IMG/VR virus record: IMGVR_UViG_3300031521_000101
Span: 1-48,784 of that record
DNA from: a virus
Strand: one strand, 5' to 3'
Length of the DNA stretch: 48,784 nucleotides
Under the pieces are notes generated by a model. It ran no database searches, was not told the origin of the DNA, and worked only from the letters and a program-made list of their open reading frames with translations. The translations under genes and the position numbers were made by a program. Positions 2-48,539 of the stretch are shown piece after piece. Position 1 is the first letter of the stretch. Every line of letters starts with the position of its first letter.

Positions 2-109
2 AGAAACAAGATTATAGAAAATCCAGAACAAATATTACACCACATAAAATTATCTAAGATTGAAAATTATATACGTAAGACCAAGCTTAGAAAAATAAGC
101 ACTAAATGA
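2..109 (+). CDS. C-terminal fragment of a tagged small protein
   Basis: The frame is open from the window edge to TGA at 107-109, giving 35 residues; the start lies outside the window. It ends in KIENYIRKTKLRKI plus STK, the same C-terminal tag as the next three genes. It is probably the last part of another member of that coiled-coil tandem set. Function unknown. Confidence 0.6.
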   Translation, partial: RNKIIENPEQILHHIKLSKIENYIRKTKLRKISTK

Positions 110-116
110 ATAGTAT

Positions 117-344
117 ATGAACATAAATGATTATGAAGATTATAAAAATTTAGAGAACGAATTTAGCAAATTAAAATCAAAATTCAATAAAATTTACAAT
201 GAAAATAACGAATTGAGATTTTATAATGATAAAATACATTCTTATTTATCAAATACAAAATTAGTGTTAAACGATATAGATTTCAATATAATAGAATCTT
301 ATGTACGTGAAACTAAATTAAATAGAATAAATGAAAAGCGATAA
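117..344 (+). CDS. Coiled-coil small protein with C-terminal tag
   Basis: 75 residues. Residues 8-45 are rich in E, K, N and L with heptad-like spacing (ENEFSKLKSKFNKIYNENN), suggesting a coiled coil. The last 20 residues carry the tag IIESYVRETKLNRI. The last 14 nt overlap the next gene, whose ATG lies inside the tag codons. It is the first complete member of a three-gene set (also 331 and 638); relatives are on the minus strand at 12108-12669. Function unknown. Confidence 0.75.
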   Translation: MNINDYEDYKNLENEFSKLKSKFNKIYNENNELRFYNDKIHSYLSNTKLVLNDIDFNIIESYVRETKLNRINEKR

Positions 345-651
345 AGAATATTATGAATTAGAACGTCGTTATCTCAAATTGACTGATAAATTTGATAACA
401 TTTATTCAGATCATATTAAAATTGAACAATCATTGAGAACTAATTATGATGAAGCATTAAGGCAACGCAACACATCAAGAAATGAATTTTATAAATTAGA
501 AAATGAGCATAAAAATTTGAATTATTTTTTTGATGAACTAAATAAAAATTTTACTGATCCAAAATTTGTTCTACCACAATTAAATATCATAGATATTGAA
601 AATTATCTAAGAAAAAAGAAATTAGAAATTTTACAATATGGAAAAAAATAA
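331..651 (+). CDS. Coiled-coil small protein with C-terminal tag
   Basis: 106 residues, the longest of the three-gene set. A long charged helical region (residues 5-75) precedes DIENYLRKKKLEIL and a short basic tail, QYGKK. The end overlaps the next gene by 14 nt. It resembles its neighbours only loosely in the coiled coil but closely in the tag. Confidence 0.77.
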   Translation: MKSDKEYYELERRYLKLTDKFDNIYSDHIKIEQSLRTNYDEALRQRNTSRNEFYKLENEHKNLNYFFDELNKNFTDPKFVLPQLNIIDIENYLRKKKLEILQYGKK

Positions 652-907
652 AAAAAGCATTAAAATAATATCAGGAGTAGATTTTGATGAATATGAGAAA
701 TTAAAAGATAAATACGATCACATATTTCGTGAATATATTAGTACATTACATGAATTCAATTTAGTTGAAAATGAAAGAGATGCATTAGAGATAGAAGTTG
801 AATCTTATAAAAAATTATTAAAAAATCCTAATAAATTATTAGAAACCATTAAATTAAAAGATATTGAAAATTATCTAAGAAATAAGAAATTAGAAAAATT
901 AGATTGA
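638..907 (+). CDS. Coiled-coil small protein with C-terminal tag
   Basis: 89 residues. DFDEYEKLKDKYDHIF near the N-terminus resembles 'NDYEDYKNLENEF' of the 117 gene. It ends in IENYLRNKKLEKLD with almost nothing after the tag. The TGA stop abuts the next ATG (TGATG). Function unknown. Confidence 0.77.
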   Translation: MEKNKKSIKIISGVDFDEYEKLKDKYDHIFREYISTLHEFNLVENERDALEIEVESYKKLLKNPNKLLETIKLKDIENYLRNKKLEKLD

Positions 908-1143
908 TGAAATATTACAAAAAAGAGAAAAATATTGAATATAGAACTTATAACAAAGATCATATAAATTTATGCTCTTGTAAAAACAAGCCAACAATAA
1001 ATACTCATATATTATCTATAAATTGTTGGAAATTTTGCACCAATTTTATAGAAAAAGGAAAAGATGACAATGGAAATTGGATTGAGTGTAAATATTATAC
1101 ATCAAAAATCAGAAAAGATAAAATAATTTTATTGAATAATTAA
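907..1143 (+). CDS. Small cysteine-rich protein, no tag
   Basis: 78 residues starting from the ATG at 907; an upstream TTG at 904 is less likely. Five cysteines fall in residues 20-60 (CSCKNK, INCWKFCTN, IECKYY), a pattern that could bind one metal ion, but I recognise no zinc-finger family. It lacks the tag although its neighbours have it. Confidence 0.7.
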   Translation: MKYYKKEKNIEYRTYNKDHINLCSCKNKPTINTHILSINCWKFCTNFIEKGKDDNGNWIECKYYTSKIRKDKIILLNN

Positions 1144-1147
1144 TGTT

Positions 1148-1423
1148 ATGATTGGACATGCAAATTATTTAATTAGTAGAGATAATATAAACAAAGAAGA
1201 ATACGAATTTTTTCTTAATAAAATTGACATTGATATAATATCAAAATTTATATGTCATGTAAAAAATAGAATTTCTATATTAGATTATAAATGTGAAATG
1301 GTAGGAATAGATTTTGAATACACTGAATATATTTCTATGTGCTTTATGGATTTCAATTATATTGAATGTTATTTTACAAAAAAGTCAAGAAAAATTAAAT
1401 TAGTTACATTGAATAATGATTAA
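1148..1423 (+). CDS. Small protein with tag-like C-terminus
   Basis: 91 residues, unrecognised. The C-terminus YFTKKSRKIKLVTLNND keeps the RKxKLxxL core of the tag without the preceding IENYL helix. It overlaps the next gene by 8 nt. It contains two cysteines and no membrane segment. Confidence 0.7.
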   Translation: MIGHANYLISRDNINKEEYEFFLNKIDIDIISKFICHVKNRISILDYKCEMVGIDFEYTEYISMCFMDFNYIECYFTKKSRKIKLVTLNND

Positions 1424-46965: not shown

Positions 46966-46966
46966 T

Positions 46967-47257
46967 ATGAAATCTTATGAGACTTGGGTATTATATGAAA
47001 TAAGTTCATCTGAAATAATCGAAGTTTTTTTAGATAAAAATAAAGCTGATGAACTTTATGATATAAAAATTAAAGAATATAAAAATAAATATCGGATAAA
47101 TTTTTTAAATTTATCCGATGAACAATATGATGAACACTTTAATATGTATATATCACATAATATTATTATTGTGATTACATTGAAAAATGCTATTGACAAT
47201 ATTAAAGAAAGATTAACTGATTATTTTGAATCAATCATTAATCCAAATTATAATTAA
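46967..47257 (+). CDS. Hypothetical protein, 96 aa
   Basis: MKSYETWVLYEISSSEIIEV, NKADELYDIKIKEYKNKYR. 'WVLYExxSSExxEVFxDKxKA' resembles small phage proteins that start with a beta hairpin. It contains a perfect 13-bp inverted repeat (47091-47119). No tag. Confidence 0.74.
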   Translation: MKSYETWVLYEISSSEIIEVFLDKNKADELYDIKIKEYKNKYRINFLNLSDEQYDEHFNMYISHNIIIVITLKNAIDNIKERLTDYFESIINPNYN

Positions 47258-47268
47258 TTAAAAATAAA

Positions 47269-47688
47269 ATGAATAGAACTTTTATATTAAGAGAAATAGA
47301 AAATATTAGAACAGAAACTAATAATTTTGAGGGAGATGAGTTTAAAGAATTATCACATGGTATTATACATAACAATGCTAGTGAAATAGATTTTAATGCA
47401 CTTGATGATCATGAATTATCATTCTTATATAAACGATTAATAGATCGATGGAATCCTTCATTTTCTGAAAGTGGTGTCTGTAAATGTGTTTGTGGTGGTA
47501 ATGCTGAAGTTAATTCTGATTATACTGACACATTATGTTATTCTGGCTATGCTTATGTTAAATGTAACAAATGTGGATTAGAAATGAGTGAAAAATCTAG
47601 TAACATAGGTTATGATGGAGTAACATTAGACTCATTGAAAAATTTAGTTTTAGAACGTTGGAACAAAGTAATTAATTGCAAATGCTAG
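47269..47688 (+). CDS. Lar-like zinc-ribbon protein (restriction alleviation type)
   Basis: 139 residues. The helical N-terminal half is unknown. C-terminal CKCVCGGNAEVNSDY (about 72-86), then AYVKCNKCGLEMSEKS and LDSLKNLVLERWNKV follow 'CPxCGGxAxV...VxCxxCG...A...WN', the plan of Lar/restriction-alleviation zinc ribbons. Lar of Rac prophage modulates type I restriction; here the role is an inference. TAG stop, with a later TAA four codons on. Confidence 0.66.
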   Translation: MNRTFILREIENIRTETNNFEGDEFKELSHGIIHNNASEIDFNALDDHELSFLYKRLIDRWNPSFSESGVCKCVCGGNAEVNSDYTDTLCYSGYAYVKCNKCGLEMSEKSSNIGYDGVTLDSLKNLVLERWNKVINCKC

Positions 47689-48020
47689 ATATACCAAGAT
47701 TAAAATCTCATATGAGCAATGGTGAAATAGAATATGTTATGTGCTCAGCAAATTGGATTGATGATGATATTGATTATTCACACAAGCCATATAATATTGA
47801 TAAAGGTTTAGTTTTTGGTGGTATTCGACACGGTAGTATATTTGAGATGACTCAAAGAATATATCCTCATGATGAATATGGTAATAAAACAATTCAAGGA
47901 TTTCTAACTACAAAAAATAGATTTTTAAATCGAGAGGATGCATTAGAATTAGTAAAATCAAACGGTCAATTAAAAAAAGAATTGTTAGGTAGTGAATTAC
48001 AATCAGAAGATTTATGGTGA
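47682..48020 (+). CDS. Phage-type 'GRRH' family protein
   Basis: 112 residues from ATG 47682; a TTG at 47676 is less likely and ATG at 47712 is possible. YVMCSANWIDDDIDYSHKPY, VFGGIRHGSIFEMT, QGFLTTKNRFLNREDALELV, SELQSEDLW. Same family as the minus-strand gene at 15828, which has GRRH where this one has GIRH. No tag. Confidence 0.8.
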   Translation: MLDIPRLKSHMSNGEIEYVMCSANWIDDDIDYSHKPYNIDKGLVFGGIRHGSIFEMTQRIYPHDEYGNKTIQGFLTTKNRFLNREDALELVKSNGQLKKELLGSELQSEDLW

Positions 48021-48271
48021 TAGATAAAAATATAATAAACGTTGGAGATAGAAGAATCAAAATAGATTGTATATTTGGATATTATCTTACAGATGATACT
48101 ACTCTTATAATTGAAAGAATAACCATTGAGGGAATAAATGAAATTGAAATTGAATTTGATAGATCATCAAAATGTAAAACAGCTTTATCTGAATTGGATT
48201 CTTTATTAGTTTTAAATATACCGAATCAAATAAGGAAAGATAAAATTTTGGAAATAAATAAAGATGTTTGA
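48014..48271 (+). CDS. Tagged beta-rich small protein (family J)
   Basis: 85 residues. NVGDRRIKIDCIFGYYLTDD, TIEGINEIEIEFDRSSKCKT, ALSELDSLLVLNIP, QIRKDKILEINKDV. First of two tandem paralogues; 8-nt overlap. Confidence 0.77.
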   Translation: MVIDKNIINVGDRRIKIDCIFGYYLTDDTTLIIERITIEGINEIEIEFDRSSKCKTALSELDSLLVLNIPNQIRKDKILEINKDV

Positions 48272-48539
48272 TATATTAAAAAATAGAATAAAAATAGGAA
48301 ATTATAGATTAAAGATAGATAGTATATATTCATATTATCCTGATGAAAGTGCTGAACATGATGTGTGGTATATTGTGGTTGAACAGGAATCAGAAGATGG
48401 TATCACTGAACTACATATAGATTTTGAGTCATCTGACGAAGTTAATAAAGTTCTTATTGAATTGGATAAATTACTTACTATTGATCCAATGAACTTAAGA
48501 AAAGAAAAATTAGAAGAAATAAATCAAAACAATAAATAA
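48264..48539 (+). CDS. Tagged beta-rich small protein (family J)
   Basis: 91 residues. RIKIGNYRLKIDSIYSYYPD, EDGITELHIDFESSDEVNKV, LIELDKLLTIDPMN, LRKEKLEEINQNNK. Paralogue of the 48014 gene; the next gene starts 3 nt later. Confidence 0.77.
   Translation: MFDILKNRIKIGNYRLKIDSIYSYYPDESAEHDVWYIVVEQESEDGITELHIDFESSDEVNKVLIELDKLLTIDPMNLRKEKLEEINQNNK

Follow-up and report, generated by a model that had tools for sequence, protein, structure and literature searches.

Introduction

Encapsulins and bacterial microcompartments use short terminal cargo-loading peptides, which sit on unrelated proteins and dock in a partner. Terminal labels across unrelated phage proteins are already known as well, from the internal head proteins of bacteriophage T4: in the available text of PMC3012670 and PMC7697877, one short terminal sequence, the capsid targeting sequence (CTS), is carried by diverse counter-defence proteins, and propeptides of similar role have been proposed for the giant phage SPN3US (available text of PMC5694885). 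Here we analyse a 48,784-nucleotide stretch of viral DNA, positions 1 to 48,784 of IMG/VR record IMGVR_UViG_3300031521_000101 (the window, meaning this whole stretch), in which many small proteins of unrelated families end in a common C-terminal tag, (Y/I/L)-R-K-x-K-L-x-K-(L/I), written RKxKLxKL below.

The tag differs from each of these systems. The T4 CTS is N-terminal and removed by the prohead protease, whereas the tag is C-terminal, spans about 119 clusters of protein bodies and is also found on transmembrane (TM) proteins. Compared with encapsulin and microcompartment cargo peptides, its bodies are far more numerous and varied, although no search was made for an encapsulin-type shell. 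Import into the phage nucleus also picks which phage proteins reach a phage-made site, but there cargo is recognised through residues of a folded surface, with no terminal signal described in the available text of PMC12908238. Many proteins of one huge phage, phage G, are also alike at the C-terminus (WKxxxxYL, 25/642), and this cultured phage holds a tandem family, all paralogous, with C-terminal WKENDRYLAKIL-type ends (JN638751, 352560-371001); 32 phage G proteins of the WKxxxxYL kind fall into one phmmer family, so their likeness reflects ordinary shared descent. Our literature search returned no description of a C-terminal label common to unrelated phage proteins, and the words 'C-terminal' and 'vault' are absent from the available main text of the huge-phage paper PMC7162821.

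A C-terminal tag on unrelated small proteins

Genes were called mechanically, from ATG starts only and with a minimum of 45 amino acids, which gave 143 genes in the window. Using a 13-column profile trained by expectation maximisation on the window's protein tails and scored over the last 30 residues, we found the tag in 86 of these at a score of at least 8 and in 82 at a score of at least 12, while a single internal position out of 9,488 reached 8 and shuffled tails gave about 0.5 matches per 404 genes, the number called on the whole contig. On inspection three of the 86 (19304-19783, 24918-25964 and 36491-36679) look like chance or atypical matches, and at least two tagged genes starting with TTG or GTG (22909-23127 and 10732-10995) were left uncounted; because the latter offset the former, the figure of more than 80 tagged proteins in an earlier note on this DNA holds. 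About one fifth of the phage's proteins end in the tag.

The window matches, with one mismatch, the first 48,784 bases of IMG/VR contig 3300029983_000009 (G002; 168,159 bases, 23% G+C). A second contig (G005, 105 kb) overlaps, in reverse, the first 15 kb of that contig, and the two were counted as one lineage with 569 called genes. Since G003 lies inside G004 and G006 overlaps G004, these three form one second lineage, about 83% identical in nucleotides to the window lineage across 75 kb; G007 (330 kb) and G009 (60 kb) are the third and fourth, and G008 (140 kb), similar to part of G007, may belong to another genome as its missing portion. One segment of the second lineage (G003:141154-143572) aligns to G004 in many shifted registers, like a tandem repeat. 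Whereas the window counts come from tails on which the profile was trained, the relatives' tails lay outside training, and a profile search there recovered the tag in G004 (99/428 genes), G007 (81/574), G008 (38/234) and G009 (36/133); the earlier note had suggested such a search of the rest of the genome and of related phages. Two named records encode the same vault protein, LR756500 (462 kb) and LR756501 (735 kb), with major vault proteins (MVP) 50-54% identical to the window's; the vault match of LR756503 is the same as that of LR756501. By the profile the tag is nearly absent from these MVP-bearing sister phages (1/688 genes in LR756500, 0/1001 in LR756501), and it scores 0/271 in T4 and 1/695 in phage G.

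We took the motif's composition from 350 profile-chosen tails scoring at least 10, drawn from six contigs of at least four lineages. It begins with Arg (349/350) and Lys (77%), then any residue, Lys (99%), Leu or Ile (99%), any residue, Lys (61%) and, in nearly all, Leu or Ile. In the window it ends 1-15 residues from the C-terminus. When the tag was removed, phmmer sorted the 350 proteins into 119 clusters, an upper estimate because phmmer splits families and remote homology may merge some. Descent of the whole tagged set from one protein family is rejected by these roughly 119 clusters of tag-less bodies. The largest cluster, the KVGD barrel, accounts for 133 of the 350 proteins and has 36 members in the window, where it is accompanied by many small phmmer clusters, in agreement with an earlier count of at least ten families; the coiled-coil and winged-helix-like assignments among them are a reading by eye. 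At least 91 of the 350 tagged bodies have an untagged phmmer homologue in these genomes, many of them below-threshold or shortened relatives.

Family libraries left most tagged proteins unnamed, and the few named members bear on the earlier proposal that conserved phage proteins lack the tag. That proposal stands for the MVP, which is untagged, but not for a tagged gp32-like single-stranded DNA (ssDNA)-binding protein at 19787-20368. The phage has another gp32 homologue, untagged and 323 residues long (G002:141926-142897), whose acidic tail is missing from this 193-residue protein. The weak gp32 match of the tagged protein reaches residue 190, so the tag occupies the end of the gp32 core and does not follow it. 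In G007 we found a tagged homologue of the anti-Thoeris protein Tad3 (L103:12930-13511; PF25185, E 3e-34; solved Tad3 9b7d, E 6e-24). Its alignment to Tad3 stops at residue 167 of 194, which leaves the tag beyond the aligned region; as the solved chain has the same length of 194 residues, the tagged homologue gains no length, and the ends of two Vibrio phage Tad3 homologues bear no tag.

Two further proteins resemble terminase ATPases: one of 223 residues in G008 (L136:1224-1892), tagged, and one of 221 residues in G007 (37930-38595), with a tag score of 6.5, below threshold. Both retain the Walker A sequence RQTGKS, with Gly or Cys replacing the Walker-B Glu of the terminase-like proteins of LR756501. 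A profile built from a tagged protein of 282-293 residues, present in all four lineages, aligns with the C-terminal portion of an LR756501 protein that we call capsid-like (E 2e-14), and the reverse search recovers the tagged protein in two of the four lineages (E 2e-7 and 6e-7); the name capsid-like rests on the LR756500 relative of the LR756501 protein, which adjoins an S77-type protease. Taken together, the carriers resemble an arsenal of accessory proteins: they include SH3-like barrels, a Tad3 homologue and altered proteins related to ssDNA-binding proteins, terminases and capsid-like proteins.

Purifying selection on the tag as a peptide

Much of the tag-coding DNA lies close to the start of a following gene, and the earlier note gave as the main alternative that the tag is a by-product of translation initiation, an A-rich stretch ahead of the next start that happens to encode RKxKLxKL. 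The arrangement of these genes lends this something: starts have an A-rich leader, a Shine-Dalgarno-like sequence precedes fewer than 3% of them, and in 69 of the 86 tagged genes the Arg codon falls 23-37 bases ahead of the next called start. However, when we searched upstream of starts in G002, G004 and G007 for an RKxKL-type word in any frame, it preceded 78% of the 221 starts that follow a tagged gene but only 3.2% of 464 starts lying at least 40 bases beyond the preceding gene, 3.5% of 548 starts closely following an untagged gene and 1.8% of the 167 remaining starts. The distance from tag to start is moreover variable, and the start falls in both other frames.

We then compared non-synonymous with synonymous change (dN/dS) in 95 orthologue pairs from the four lineages. 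The six conserved tag codons gave a dN/dS of 0.173 against 0.512 in the bodies, and in the 15 pairs with at least 20 bases to the next called start purifying selection was present, with 0.061 in the tag codons against 0.476 in the bodies. The two spacer codons of the tag gave 0.684. Synonymous change in the tag was at or above the rate of the body (proportion of synonymous differences, pS, 0.439 against 0.433). Two lineages alone gave a similar picture, with 0.136 in the tag against 0.465 across 44 pairs, and 0.070 in the five pairs with a gap of at least 20 bases.

Individual genes agree. The five genes singled out earlier for keeping the tag in the absence of an overlapping successor, ending at 24871, 28957, 29911, 36399 and 45787, all retain it, with 46, 57, 185, 91 and 71 bases, respectively, to the next called ATG; for the first, the gap shrinks to 10 if the next gene starts at TTG 24882. 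Its orthologue in the second lineage (G004_348) is tagged with a gap of 65 bases, as is the orthologue of 29558-29911 (G004_341) with a gap of 168. The earlier note had taken a lack of purifying selection in genes of this kind as the mark of a by-product, and the outcome was the opposite. Because the motif is rare before other starts and purifying selection acts in the 15 pairs with no close successor, we reject the by-product explanation, which we consider scarcely credible. What is selected is the peptide that the tag DNA encodes.

Tag structure and membrane topology

An AlphaFold2 model of one tagged barrel (34969-35229; mean predicted local distance difference test score, pLDDT, 87.8) shows a small beta barrel and then, at residues 68-85, a helix that holds the tag, with a block-mean pLDDT of 97 over residues 61-80. 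In the one tagged family modelled, the tag is therefore predicted to be a C-terminal helix. In Foldseek searches, the models of this barrel and of a barrel bearing the second label described below gave weak matches to barrels of the SH3, Tudor and chromo types (E 0.046 at best for the tagged barrel), as well as other matches, none of them in the PDB at E below 0.001; in BFVD the tagged barrel matched two phage proteins with E below 0.001.

A short, basic, C-terminal element predicted to be helical could also be an amphipathic helix that binds the inner membrane. By hydropathy, TM segments are predicted for 20 of the 371 tagged proteins, and in all 20 the C-terminal tail is net positive with the tag included, which predicts that the tag faces the cytoplasm; over the 15 residues past the last TM segment the net charge was positive in 15, zero in two and negative in three. 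A tag held on the predicted inside would suit a membrane helix, but the tag is retained even where a protein has TM segments of its own. Furthermore, the most conserved residue, Arg, shares a face with the conserved Leu: the tag Arg (5.1 bits) and Lys (3.1 bits) lie 2 and 58 degrees off the centre of the conserved face, the periodicity itself being only suggestive. We regard membrane targeting as unlikely because TM proteins carry the tag and the near-invariant Arg sits on its most conserved face.

A second, mutually exclusive terminal label

When four-residue patterns at protein termini were counted in these genomes, two further words emerged that were about as strong as RKxKLxKL: KFN(I/L) at the C-terminus and KxxKxFE at the N-terminus. 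We call the combination label A, defined as a C-terminal K(F/Y)N(I/L), mostly together with an N-terminal MK(Y/H)(I/L)KxFE. Label A marks 138 of the 569 genes (24%) of the window lineage, for example at G002:67909-168159 and in G005 at 15-60 kb, as well as 80/428 genes in G004, 104/574 in G007, 35/133 in G009 and 11/234 in G008; each sister phage has one (1/688 in LR756500, 1/1001 in LR756501), and the window has none except a chance end at 8241-8471. Its last four residues are also conserved, with a dN/dS of 0.081, including in 20 non-overlapping pairs, against 0.474 in the bodies.

The two labels exclude each other. Both were called on 1, 2, 0 and 0 genes in the four lineages (Fisher p 1.1e-15, 1.5e-8, 2.3e-8 and 1.9e-6), and these double-labelled genes look like chance ends. 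Among 761 orthologue pairs, 207 carry label A in both members and 95 the tag in both, with none joining label A to the tag when a double case is counted as label A; label A was called in one member only in 15 pairs. Homology between the label-A and tagged barrels was not established (hhalign probability 10, E 0.0032).

Label A, and not the tag, partly resembles the T4 CTS. A profile of 322 label-A N-termini ranks the T4 internal protein IpI first among 271 T4 open reading frames (ORFs), at 7.6 with the next at 5.3, and none of 695 phage G ORFs reaches 6. Second-ranked in T4 is a hypothetical protein (gene 61.1, 18966-19130) that begins MKTFKEFIKED and may carry a CTS. The S77 prohead protease (PF03420) was not found in the six tag-bearing contigs, which are fragments, nor did phmmer detect anything there homologous to the LR756500 protease gene or its two head-gene neighbours; the protease is present in LR756500 (E 2e-12) and, weakly, in LR756501.

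These observations bear on two other explanations of the tag. As a virion packaging signal, it would have its carriers loaded into the capsid and injected, like the T4 internal proteins, diverse defence proteins that have only the CTS in common in the available text of PMC3012670; for a tagged Tad3 homologue, arrival by injection would be an advantage. It is nevertheless label A that is the more T4-like, if only in part, and it excludes the tag, while TM segments are predicted in 20 of 371 tagged proteins against none of 368 label-A proteins (hydropathy only). Packaging is on these grounds a less likely function for the tag, and we give it little credence. Alternatively the tag could govern turnover or stability, as a degron or protease-docking sequence on short-lived early proteins. 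Its C-terminal place on small, fast-evolving proteins would fit, and exclusion from label A is expected if virion proteins need stability, but the tag lies 1-15 residues from the end and not at the terminus, and we consider this reading improbable too, if slightly less so than packaging.

Terminal labels and the vault protein in sister phages

The MVP gene lies between tagged arrays (4569-7028), and the tag could accordingly be a cargo-loading peptide for a vault-like shell, by analogy with the short terminal cargo peptides of encapsulins and bacterial microcompartments. Yet the two phages with a 50-54% identical MVP are nearly tag-free, and TM proteins would be odd cargo, so that we find this highly unlikely. 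The MVP was not found in the 13 records behind tag-bearing loci, which is uninformative since all are fragments and at least one (G006) overlaps an MVP-bearing genome. As the tag's partner, the MVP has no support, MVP phages being nearly without the tag.

The sister phages have end sequences of their own. In LR756500, N-terminal MKYIKEYEEF-type and C-terminal NADDFGFFDN sequences occur on proteins with different bodies. In LR756501, a C-terminal DPYGEE(N/D)W ends about 41 proteins (for example 145891-146127, 552409-552918, 11314-11850 and 619760-620383), and 10 of 42 proteins selected by this pattern resemble parts of untagged proteins, including the phage's protease/scaffold and capsid-like protein. 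End labels may thus be a habit of this huge-phage group, with a C-terminal word that differs by lineage. A few kb from the LR756500 MVP gene (26348-31658), six proteins with different bodies have an MK(Y/F)-type N-terminus and an NA(D)DFG-type C-terminus, two of them being leucine-rich repeat proteins by inspection.

Tagged features of the window

The tagged genes and their neighbours are collected in Table 1. The window also holds a tRNA gene with anticodon CTA (31316-31387), and the stop codon TAG still terminates 24 of 148 called window genes; the 84 genes that have an RKxKL-like tail account for 19 of these.

Table 1. Tagged genes, tag cores and the vault gene in the window
Feature	Position	Strand	Evidence
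Three tagged genes of coiled-coil type (by inspection)	117-344, 331-651, 638-907	+	tag scores 16-18, clustering
Three tagged genes, the last of the barrel family	907-1143, 1148-1423, 1416-1679	+	profile, clustering
Three tagged proteins with predicted TM near N-terminus, post-TM tail net positive	1918..2972	+	profile, clustering, charge
Atypical tag RNFKLQKI, 45 bases upstream of MVP gene	4110..4523	+	score 15
Full-length MVP homologue, untagged	4569..7028	+	Pfam MVP_shoulder E 9e-28
Array of tagged KVGD barrels, tag ends overlapped by starts	8241..11690	-	profile, clustering
Three tagged proteins, 58-65 residues	12108..12669	-	profile, clustering
Three tagged two-TM proteins, tag predicted cytoplasmic	18026..19010	+	profile, clustering, charge
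gp32-like ssDNA-binding protein, 193 residues, tagged	19787..20368	+	PF08804 E 4.5e-7; PDB gp32 E 4e-6
Two tagged TM proteins, the second without Arg	20375..21116	+	profile, charge
Small tagged proteins of several families	21488..23299	+	profile, clustering
Seven tagged KVGD barrels	23296..24871	+	profile, clustering
Tag core RKNKLQKL; after the stop, ATG at 46 bases and TTG at 10	24830..24853	+	profile
Tagged barrels in an array with another family of four members	25968..28957	+	profile, clustering
Tag core RKEKLEKL, operon end (57 bases)	28919..28942	+	profile
Tagged TM protein, no overlapping successor (185 bases), tag core 29879-29902	29558..29911	+	profile
Tagged protein, 138 residues	31525..31941	+	profile, orthologue comparison
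Array of tagged genes, barrels and other families	32203..36399	+	profile, clustering
Tagged barrel modelled by AlphaFold2	34969..35229	+	mean pLDDT 87.8
Tag core RKNKLEKI, operon end (91 bases)	36358..36381	+	profile
Tagged barrel upstream of untagged nucleotidyltransferase-like gene	37545..37769	+	profile, clustering
Three tagged paralogues, winged-helix-like by inspection	41323..42302	+	profile, clustering
Three tagged genes, the last without overlapping successor (71 bases), tag core 45731-45754	44883..45787	+	profile, clustering
Two tagged paralogues	48014..48539	+	profile, clustering

Discussion

With moderate confidence, we read RKxKLxKL as a docking label at the C-terminus, one that directs roughly a fifth of the proteins of this phage to a single shared partner or site in the cytoplasm. 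A docking role fits better than a membrane helix or a terminal degron because a strict Arg and Lys stand beside two Leu, the spacers are free, TM proteins are among the carriers and the tag lies 1-15 residues from the end. The earlier proposal of a sorting or docking signal thus keeps its core, a label selected at the amino-acid level, while of the destinations it listed virion packaging has become less likely and a membrane unlikely. If the two labels mark two destinations, label A would send proteins into the prohead, perhaps for injection, and tag-bearing proteins would remain inside the infected cell, at a site made by the phage or on a machine of the host; the replication or assembly zone, RNA polymerase and the ribosome are candidates.

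Several points weigh against this picture. The orthologue pairs come from several lineage comparisons that share genes and are not independent, only 15 pairs have no close successor, and the starts were called mechanically from ATG alone. The tag was called in only one orthologue in 21 of the 761 pairs, a discrepancy eased by the finding that about five of the ten one-sided pairs listed have a tag-like end in both members. The grouping of conserved tag positions along a single face of the helix, with a permutation p of 0.056, is no more than suggestive, and with the label-A N-terminal profile IpIII and IpII, which have a different form of the signal in common, rank 26 and 27 (-2.0) and Alt 71 (-7.9) of 271, which is why the likeness of label A to the T4 CTS is partial. 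The partner protein was not found in this analysis, and a general role in stability, turnover or weak nucleic-acid binding would give similar selection.

Together the two labels mark 258 of the 569 genes on the window lineage's two contigs, most of them without known function. A two-code addressing of this approximately 45% of called genes, in which label A would lead to the virion for injection and the RKxKLxKL helix to a single site in the cell, is a speculative proposal that we rate as doubtful, and with it the idea that some tagged, altered relatives of terminase, capsid and ssDNA-binding proteins may be decoys. Capsid and terminase proteins trigger bacterial immunity, and the available text of PMC10732053 describes an ssDNA-binding protein as a trigger of bacterial immune sensing; decoys are conceivable because all three kinds are detected by bacterial immune sensors.

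Terminal signals play no part in phage-nucleus import as the available text of PMC12908238 describes it, so a system of terminal labels within an infected cell would differ from it in kind. If the labels are true addresses, the location of each unknown gene's product could be predicted from its ends, and a label profile would find phage accessory proteins that whole-protein similarity misses. The reader of the C-terminal tag would then be a new hub of phage-host interaction, and the gathering of tagged proteins at a single site, if true, would be a viral counterpart of organelle targeting.

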